A stretch of DNA of 12,393 nt from Pseudomonadota bacterium. GTDB taxonomy: Bacteria; Pseudomonadota; Alphaproteobacteria; Rhizobiales; Beijerinckiaceae. The notes below the pieces were generated by a model. That model made no database searches. It was not told the origin of the DNA and saw only the letters and a list, made by a program, of their open reading frames with translations. Shown here piece by piece: positions 9,411 through 12,393 of the stretch; within the stretch, counting starts at the first letter, position 1, and the number at the start of each line of letters is the position of its first letter. A program made the translations under genes and the position numbers. The DNA lies in the NCBI GenBank assembly GCA_021780015.1, contig JAJXZN010000144.1, positions 1 to 12,393 on the forward strand. Reading direction: 5' to 3'.

Positions 9411-10565
9411 ATGTCCAGTTCCAGCAAAGCCGTCGATCTCTGCCGCGCGCTCATCCGCTGCCCGTCGGTTACGCCCGAGGACGGCGGTGCGCTCGGCGTC
9501 CTCGAAGACCGCCTGAAGGCCGCCGGCTTTAGCACGCACCGGCTGCGCTTCTCTGAGCCGGGCACGCCCGATATCGACAATCTTTACGCGCGAATCGGCA
9601 ACGGCGCGCCTTGCCTCGTCTTCGCCGGCCACACCGATGTCGTACCGCCGGGCGACACGGCTGCCTGGCGTTTCGATCCGTTTTCAGGAGAGATCGCCGA
9701 TGGCGCGCTCTGGGGCCGTGGCGCCAGCGACATGAAAGGCGGCATCGCCGCCTTCGCTGCCGCGGCGCTCGATTATGTCGCTGCCAATCCGGGCTTGAAA
9801 GGCTCGATCGGGCTGCTTATCACGGGCGACGAGGAAGGCCCCGCCGTCAACGGCACGGTGAAGCTCCTCGAATGGGCGGCCGCGCAGGGCGAGCATTTCG
9901 ATCATTGCCTCGTGGGCGAGCCGACCAATGTCGAAGCGCTCGGCGATACGATCAAGATCGGCCGGCGTGGCTCGCTCACCGGGACGCTGCAAGTCCACGG
10001 CACGCAAGGCCACGTCGCCTATCCGCAGCGTGCCGACAATCCCATCCCGCACCTGCTGCGCCTGCTGACCGCGCTGATCGAGACGCCGCTCGACGCGGGC
10101 TCAGCGCGCTTCGACCCGAGCCATCTTGAAATCCTGAGCGTCGACGTCGGCAATCCGGCGACCAATATCATTCCGGCCTCGGCGCGGGCGCGCTTCAACA
10201 TCCGCTTCAATGATCGTTGGACGCCGCAGACGCTGCAGGACGAAATCAAGCGGCGCTGCGCCGGCGCGGACAGCGGCCGCACCGATCTGAGCTTCGATCC
10301 CTGCAATGCCTTGGCCTTCGTGACCGAGGCCGACCATTTCACCGATCTCGTCGTCGAGGCGATCGCCGCGCACACCGGCCGGATCGCGCATTTTTCGACC
10401 TCCGGCGGCACCTCCGACGCGCGCTTCATCCGCGCCTATTGCCCGGTCATCGAATTCGGCCTCGTCGGCGCGACGATGCATAAGGTCGACGAGTGCGTGC
10501 CGCTCGCCGATATCGATCGGCTCACGACGATCTATCGGGAGATTTTGACGCGTTATTTCGCTTAG
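9411..10565 (+). CDS. dapE: Succinyl-diaminopimelate desuccinylase DapE
   Basis: DapE is an M20-family dizinc hydrolase that removes succinate from N-succinyl-LL-diaminopimelate, leading to lysine and peptidoglycan cross-links. All metal and catalytic residues known from Haemophilus DapE are in place, shifted by seven: H74 and D76 in [11 protein letters not shown]107 in [10 protein letters not shown], the TGDEEG pair E141/E142, E170 in GEPT, and H357 in MHKVDE. The dimerisation lid lies at about 182-295 and includes GRRGSLTG and [22 protein letters not shown] at 329-339 is also typical. The 384-residue length is normal. The ATG at 9411 is right for the family N-terminus, but no Shine-Dalgarno sequence precedes it. 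The TAG stop shares its last base with the downstream palindrome. Confidence 0.97.
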
Positions 10566-10613
10566 AGCGGGATGCGAAAAAGTGTCAGCTGTTTTTCGCA
10601 AAAAATCCCGCTC
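10565..10613. repeat. Palindromic repeat, copy 2, hairpin after dapE
   Basis: The outer arms GAGCGGGAT (10565-10573) and ATCCCGCTC (10605-10613) pair over 9 bp. The inner arms GCGAAAAA (10574-10581) and TTTTTCGC (10592-10599) add 8 bp around a 10-base loop. The only asymmetry is a 5-A bulge at 10600-10604. The first base of the outer arm is the last base of the dapE stop codon. The core is related to the repeat at 8572-8596. It may serve as a 3'-end structure or terminator for dapE. Confidence 0.75.
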
Positions 10614-10628
10614 CAAACTATGAGAATC

Positions 10629-10671
10629 GATCACGTTTATGATTTCGGGTCGATCCGAAATCATCGTGATC
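10629..10671. terminator. Second hairpin, probable terminator or 3'-end stem for lptB
   Basis: GATCACG (10629-10635) pairs with CGTGATC (10665-10671), and ATGATTTCGG (10639-10648) with CCGAAATCAT (10655-10664), closing on a 6-base loop GTCGAT. That gives 17 paired bases with one TTT bulge. The last base belongs to the lptB stop codon on the minus strand. The location between two converging genes suggests a two-way transcription end. No strong T-tract follows on either side, so the terminator role is inferred. The stem may instead be part of a dispersed repeat. Confidence 0.5.
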
Positions 10672-11813
10672 TAAAGCCTAAAGCTTTCGCCGAGATAGAA
10701 GCGGCGCACGTCGGCATTGGCGACGATTTCTTCGGGCCGGCCTTCGGTCAAGATACCGCCGCTGTGGACGATATAGGCGCGGTCGATCAGATCGAGCGTC
10801 TCGCGCACATTATGGTCGGTGATCAGCACGCCGATGCCGCGCCGCTTCAGATGCTGAACGAGCTGGCGGATGTCGCCGATGGCAATCGGATCGATGCCGG
10901 CGAAAGGCTCGTCGAGCAGCATGAAGGATGGATGACCGGCGAGCGAGCGGGCGATTTCGCAGCGCCGGCGCTCGCCACCGGAGAGGGCGATCGCCGGCAA
11001 TTTGCGCAGCCGCGCGATGTCGAATTCCTCAAGCAGGGCTTCGAGTTCGTCGGCGCGCTTGGCCTTATCCGGTTGAGTGATTTCGAGAACCGCGCGGATG
11101 TTCTCTTCGACGGAGAGGCCGCGGAAGATCGACGGCTCTTGCGGCAAATAGCCGATGCCGAGGCGAGCGCGGCGGTACATCGGCAGCGATGTCACGTCGT
11201 AGTCATCGAGCATGATCATGCCGGAATCGGGCCGGATGAGGCCGGTGACCATGTAAAACAGCGTCGTCTTGCCGGCGCCGTTTGGCCCGAGCAGGCCGAC
11301 GGCCTCGCCGCGATGGACGCGCAAGCTCACGTCTTTGATGATCTGGCGTTTGCGATAGGACTTGCTGAGCGATTGGACGATCAGCGATCCACCCGGCTGG
11401 GCCGCCTCGTCCACGGCGCCATCGCCGGGCGCCGGTCGTGCCTCGACGGGCTGGCCGGGCGCGGCGGCCGCTTTGGGCCGTGCTGTGGGACGCGGTGATG
11501 CCTTGCCTGGTAAAGCCGGGCGGCCATCGTGCAGCACCGGCGCAGGCGGCTCGGACAGTTTCGTCCCCCAGTCTTCGAGATCCTGCGGCAGCCATTCGGG
11601 CCCCAGCGCCTCTTGCGCCTCGGCGCCTTCGGCACTCTCGAAAAGCCAAGCCTCGGCGCTTTGCGGGCGCTCGCCGGCGCCGCTCTGCCGACGGCCGAAA
11701 AGACCGCGCAGCCATGTCATGACGCCCGCCCCTTGTTGCAATTGGCTGGACGGCGTTGCCGTGGCCATATCGGAAGCATTGGCGCGAAAGTCGCCCTCCG
11801 AACCTCTTGTCAT
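10671..11813 (-). CDS. lptB: LPS export ABC transporter ATPase LptB with long N-terminal extension
   Basis: LptB is the cytoplasmic ATPase that, with LptF/G, extracts LPS from the inner membrane and drives it along LptC and LptA. The ABC domain begins at about residue 143 and is complete: Walker [10 protein letters not shown] at 176-184, Q-loop Q225 in [17 protein letters not shown], signature LSGGERRR at 277-284, Walker B LLDEP at 299-303, and switch H334 in [15 protein letters not shown] and GIDPIAI are LptB hallmarks. The protein has 380 residues against about 240 for E. coli LptB, because of a 140-residue N-terminal region rich in Ala, Pro and Glu. It holds a hydrophobic/basic [11 protein letters not shown] at 32-42 and is otherwise probably disordered. 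Such extensions occur in rhizobial LptB. The ATG at 11813 overlaps the lptA stop (ATGA). M16 and M32 are possible later starts. Confidence 0.93.
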
Positions 11814-12130
11814 CGCGCCGCAGACTCCGACCGGCGCGCGCTCGACCGATGCGTTTTTTTCGGCTTTGGCTCCTCGCCCGTCGTGTTGCCGCCGCTGCTG
11901 TTGCTGTTGTCGTTGTCCGGAATGAACAGGCTGCGTACGTGCCCGGTGACGACCGCCTGCGTCGTCTTCAGATCATAGACGATATGGTCGCCGAGGGTAA
12001 CGTTCGGCCCCTGGGTCAGGCTCACATTGCCGTCAAGATAAACCTTGTCGAGGGATTTTTCATAGATGCCGGAATCGCCCGTCGCGACCTGATCCTTGGA
12101 GATCAATGTCACCGGTCCCACCGCTTCCAT
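11810..12130 (-). CDS. lptA: LPS transport periplasmic protein LptA, C-terminal half only
   Basis: LptA is the periplasmic bridge protein that carries LPS from LptC to LptD. Recognisable OstA/LptA-like sequence runs from about [14 protein letters not shown] through [29 protein letters not shown] and [17 protein letters not shown], which are repeating beta-strands of the jellyroll. It ends in a low-complexity Asn/Ser/Gly stretch and a basic tail, about 106 residues in all. The stop overlaps the lptB ATG by 4 bases, the usual lptA-lptB arrangement. The first half, with signal peptide and N-terminal strands, is missing. An open frame continues to an ATG at 12349, but those 73 residues (charged, with no signal peptide) are the antisense of a psd-like gene and not LptA. 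The gene is therefore truncated at a junction near 12115-12130. Confidence 0.8.
12113..12130. other. Sequence junction between lptA and a psd-like gene
   Basis: Leftward of this interval the minus strand encodes LptA, and rightward the plus strand encodes a phosphatidylserine decarboxylase-like protein. Both readings remain plausible across these few codons, so the breakpoint cannot be placed more exactly. No insertion sequence end, target duplication or repeat is visible at the join. Chimeric assembly or cloning is the simplest explanation, and recombination in the cell the alternative. Confidence 0.65.
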
Positions 12131-12393
12131 GCGCCTTGCGACGGCCGCATCGAACACGTCAGCCACCTCGGCGGCGACACCTGGAACGTGAACCCGATCG
12201 CGCTCCAGCGCGTCGAGCGCCTGTTCTGCCGCAACGAGCGTGCGCTGATCCGCATGCGCCTGCGCGGCGGCGAGCCGCTCGCGCTGGTGCCGGTCGCGGC
12301 GATCCTGGTCGCGAGCATCCGCCTGCGTTTCGTCGACGTGCGGCTGCATCTGCGCTGGCCGGGGCCGAACGACCTGCCTTGCGCGGCCGAGGT
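12119..12393 (+). CDS. psd: Phosphatidylserine decarboxylase (long type), internal fragment
   Basis: Psd decarboxylates phosphatidylserine to phosphatidylethanolamine at the inner membrane. This frame runs open to the window edge. It begins [19 protein letters not shown], matching the YHR-H-P-DG segment of the family, then has WNVNPIAL and LFCRNERALIRM, equivalent to the conserved SVNPLAV and LFARNER blocks. A strand AAILVASIRLRF and RWPGPNDLP follow. That order fits the longer Psd type, which I associate mainly with gamma- and betaproteobacteria; as I recall, Rhizobiales usually carry a shorter type. The N-terminal third is absent and the C-terminal self-cleavage motif (GST) would lie beyond the window. 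No start codon or ribosome binding site is present because the gene is cut at the junction. Nine of its twelve leucines use CTG. Confidence 0.7.

Follow-up and report, generated by a model that had tools for sequence, protein, structure and literature searches.

The window, a stretch of 12,393 nucleotides that makes up one whole contig (C286) of a 1.69-Mb genome bin (320 contigs, 60% complete), ends in parts of two unrelated genes on opposite strands. On the minus strand, the 3' half of lptA sits directly upstream of lptB. On the plus strand, an internal segment of psd runs to the contig end. A 179-residue open frame crosses the place where the two meet.

Table 1 Features at the right end of the contig.
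Feature	Positions	Strand	Evidence
lptB (ABC transporter ATPase), full frame	10671..11813	-	PF00005, E 5e-34; follows lptA, as it does in other genomes of the genus
3' half of lptA with stop codon, corresponding to residues 103-210 of intact P0001	11810..12135	-	PF03968 (LptA/LptD_N), scored stretch 11810-12391, profile 30-111 of 113, E 2.7e-7; 79% identity to G007; 107/108 identical to P0001
Open frame of 179 residues across the join	11810..12349	-	LptA in residues 72-179 only; judged artefactual
Join zone, up to 18 bases fitting both parents (16 without 12134-12135)	12118..12135	.	Column counts and 16-base parent comparison
Internal fragment of the phosphatidylserine decarboxylase gene (psd), truncated at the join and where the contig ends	12118..12393	+	PF02666 (PS_Dcarbxylase), scored stretch 12110-12391, profile 80-148 of 198, E 6.8e-18; named loci; blastn

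The gene order from yidC to dapE is the same in a single-contig genome of the same genus (G004), in which lptB lies about 3.4 kb past dapE. In a second same-genus genome, lptA, lptB and dapE adjoin in this order, as on our contig (G007:C38). The first 700 bases of the contig match six of the eight same-genus genomes searched in one piece, starting from base 1 or 2; the match to G002 is in two pieces and G008 has none. A second chimeric end at the contig start was therefore considered and rejected. Because of the common gene order and the matching start, the contig looks sound apart from its right end.

The LptB frame has 380 residues, of which about 150 precede the ABC domain (residues 160-305), and all 380 are covered in alignments to G004 and G007. 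The space between dapE and lptB contains a repeat of about 110 bases (10560-10675) that has 29 further matches in the bin, 19 of them at 86-91% identity; it seems partly palindromic, and a few places in the bin were matched on both strands. A scan for promoters and terminators gave nothing useful.

Affinities of the lptA and psd sides

Compared separately, a check that the preliminary description of this DNA had proposed, the two sides have their relatives in different lineages, the lptA side nearest to the same genus and the psd side mostly betaproteobacterial, although, among the matches listed, five genomes of the same family (G131, G066, G074, G149 and G125) also resemble the psd side, with 74-79% DNA identity. 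Of 40 relatives, 31 besides the bin were matched by a 101-residue translation of the lptA side; all of the ten best belong to the same genus, and the closest two have 79% and 78% identity. The source names among the LptA relatives included Methylovirgula sp. (the two closest so named at 77-80% identity), Methylocella tundrae and Beijerinckiaceae bacterium, from which the genus is probably Methylovirgula-like.

The best database protein for the 179-residue frame is P0001, an intact LptA of 210 residues encoded on a 16-kb contig. The best BLASTP alignment between them starts at residue 72 of the frame (12136-12134) and continues to its last residue with a single mismatch; it halts at the join and leaves residues 1-71 outside. 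From its sequence, the stretch from 11810 to 12135 appears to be genuine DNA of the binned organism. When searched against the bin with the whole P0001, only this contig was found, matching P0001 residues 102-210, while residues 1-101 had no match in a search for which the second half served as a positive control. With the N-terminal half of a same-genus LptA as the query, we obtained only two weak matches in the bin (E 0.1 and 0.2), both with internal stops; the absence of the 5' part of lptA says little in a bin that is 60% complete. No lptC was found in the bin with a same-genus LptC query, in a search that had no positive control. The PF03968 profile hit only our contig and a 923-residue frame on C5, which, judged by its length, is probably LptD.

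The frame on the contig is not a complete LptA with a signal peptide. It stays open over 179 residues and could in principle encode a natural, lineage-specific protein with an LptA-like C-terminal half, but the bases upstream of the join follow psd on the opposite strand, and only four of the 100 matches from a protein search with the frame (P0065, P0067, P0069 and P0092) cover more than 61% of the query. The three that were examined, all but P0067, are ordinary LptAs, and the P0065 alignment continues past the LptA half over unrelated residues. We consider the chance of such a protein practically negligible. The frame is thus almost certainly an artefact, as had been predicted from the letters, in that only its residues 72-179 are LptA, and it shows no new gene.

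The plus-strand psd segment that had been noticed over the same bases is borne out by the PF02666 match (Table 1). None of the 40 relatives matched it as protein at E ≤ 0.001. In named genomes, at least 536 candidate stretches encode a relative of this side, and the best 80 were retained; by title, 67 of these are betaproteobacterial, seven are from Gammaproteobacteria, three from Pseudomonadota or Proteobacteria, two from Prosthecobacter and one from Opitutus. The top five show 81-84% protein identity, and one of them is labelled Prosthecobacter. The best blastn match was a Rubrivivax bin (L028) with 85.9% DNA identity over 12115-12383. Two psd loci from family genomes (L112 and L113) have, when translated, 64-65% protein identity to the psd side, and a Sphingomonas plasmid has a match with 81% identity that covers 56% of the query. 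The psd fragment is most likely foreign, of betaproteobacterial type, and its donor is most likely Burkholderiales-like. Because the five same-family genomes match at 74-79%, an origin in a different class is not required, and the donor may be an alphaproteobacterium carrying such a gene.

The presence of a betaproteobacterial-type psd in five family genomes (L111, L112, L113, L114 and G125:C386) and on the Sphingomonas plasmid points to possible horizontal transfer of this gene.

The bin has another psd, a complete frame of 253 residues on C134 that covers positions 2-197 of the 198-position profile and lies beside a CDP-alcohol phosphatidyltransferase. We rejected the idea that the fragment is the bin's own psd, as this frame is complete and even its best alignment to the fragment (E 4.5) is not credible. 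The fragment itself is not a complete gene for a functional phosphatidylserine decarboxylase, covering only the part of the profile listed in Table 1 and ending with the contig.

The join zone

When aligned by columns, the window keeps to ten same-genus lptA genes as far as about 12135, and none of the ten agrees at 12136-12138. It follows 79 psd genes from 12118 onward, and none of the 79 agrees at 12117. Because the two stretches of agreement overlap, the breakpoint takes up a zone rather than a point, 12118-12135, which lies 258-275 bases or so before the contig ends. This places the loss of LptA character where the preliminary description had put it, at about 12130, and it coincides with the halt of the P0001 alignment. 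The zone is antisense to the lptA codons for R-R-M-E-A-V and contains the psd codons for H-R-F-H-A-P. Within the zone, positions 12120 and 12134 each agree with only one of the ten lptA relatives; the valine encoded by the window codon at 12119-12121 is also present in P0001.

The switch between the genes thus falls on a short sequence of 16-18 bases that is common to both. In the 16-base comparison of the parents, the lptA of G004 agrees at 15 of 16 bases with eight of 81 psd loci; for this genome, out of roughly 549,000 position pairs of these genes, a median of 5 reach the same agreement. The mean agreement over the psd loci ranges from 13.2 of 16 bases for G004 down to 8.3 for G003 and is 10.8 overall (810 pairs), so that the overlap is strong in G004 and some others and weak in G003, G006 and G010. 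Of the 84 psd loci, 81 entered the comparison; the motif was not found in the others, L111 and L114 among them. For L088 the comparison gave a six-residue fragment, which shows that this locus was anchored at the wrong place.

Both genes have intact relatives elsewhere. Besides P0001 for lptA, the psd frame stays open over 150 residues or more ahead of the join motif in 77 of 79 loci, and the other two are cut by the locus start (the join motif was found in 79 of the 80 loci, here and in the column comparison; L027 was missed in the upstream-frame count). A tblastn search of the 80 psd loci with the LptA half of the window and a same-genus LptA gave no match.

We also looked for the same lptA-psd arrangement in related genomes, as had been suggested. 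When 374 bases across the join were compared with 149 family genomes (four candidates scored per genome), the bin's own sequence was the only one among the matches listed that spans the join. The other family matches listed stop no later than query position 117 (12136) or start no earlier than position 96 (12115). In the region 11900-12393 we found no inverted repeat and a single short direct repeat, which lies inside the psd part; a repeat-mediated join was rejected for this reason.

A chimeric contig end as the best explanation

In a real rearrangement, a psd fragment from a different bacterium would have entered lptA of this strain by recombination, and lptA would be lost or kept at another place. 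This type of psd is sporadic in the family and is found on the Sphingomonas plasmid, so it occurs outside Betaproteobacteria, and no second lptA was detected in the bin, where the PF03968 and P0001 searches led to nothing beyond the matches described above. However, such an event would disrupt an LPS-transport gene that is generally held essential, P0001 is intact despite its near identity over the common half, no inverted repeat was found in 11900-12393, and the foreign part extends only to the contig end. We consider this rearrangement very improbable. Equally improbable is a strain of this lineage in which a horizontally acquired psd fragment disrupts lptA and which survives without LptA or with a second LptA.

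Instead, the last ~260-275 bases are almost certainly a false extension, in which lptA of the binned alphaproteobacterium is joined to psd of a co-occurring bacterium via a chance overlap. The sequence of the alphaproteobacterium would end inside lptA, and the overlap of about 16-18 bases would link this end to a psd fragment from the co-occurring, probably Burkholderiales-like bacterium. We infer that the join did not form in a cell but arose during assembly or through template switching when the library was prepared. An overlap of 16-18 bases falls a little short of the k-mer sizes that common assemblers use, so that a library chimera is no less possible than an error of the assembler. The preliminary description had also put a contig or clone chimera first, and this reading is supported by the differing affinities of the two sides, the near-identical intact LptA, the occurrence of the join only in the bin among the matches listed, and the short overlap near the contig end. 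Most likely, neither a real gene disruption nor a new gene is demonstrated by this locus.

The significance of the join is one of data quality only. Beyond about 12118 the contig should not be trusted. The locus gives no ground for reading the bin as one with an interrupted lptA, and databases should not take up the frame at 11810-12349 as a new LptA-like family.

Compared with known LptA proteins (PF03968), residues 72-179 of the frame match the intact P0001 at 107 of 108 positions, whereas the contig lacks residues 1-102 of that intact protein and with them the signal peptide. Similarly, the psd fragment corresponds to the middle of a Burkholderiales phosphatidylserine decarboxylase (PF02666) but has neither the N-terminal part nor the C-terminal end. 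GUNC (PMC8201837) deals with genome chimerism. Our contig resembles chimeric contigs in metagenome-assembled genomes in having two lineages on one contig, a short common switch sequence near the contig end, and a fragmented, incomplete bin. It differs in that the foreign part is confined to the final ~260-275 bases and falls short of a complete gene, and gene-based chimera checks could miss so short a foreign end.
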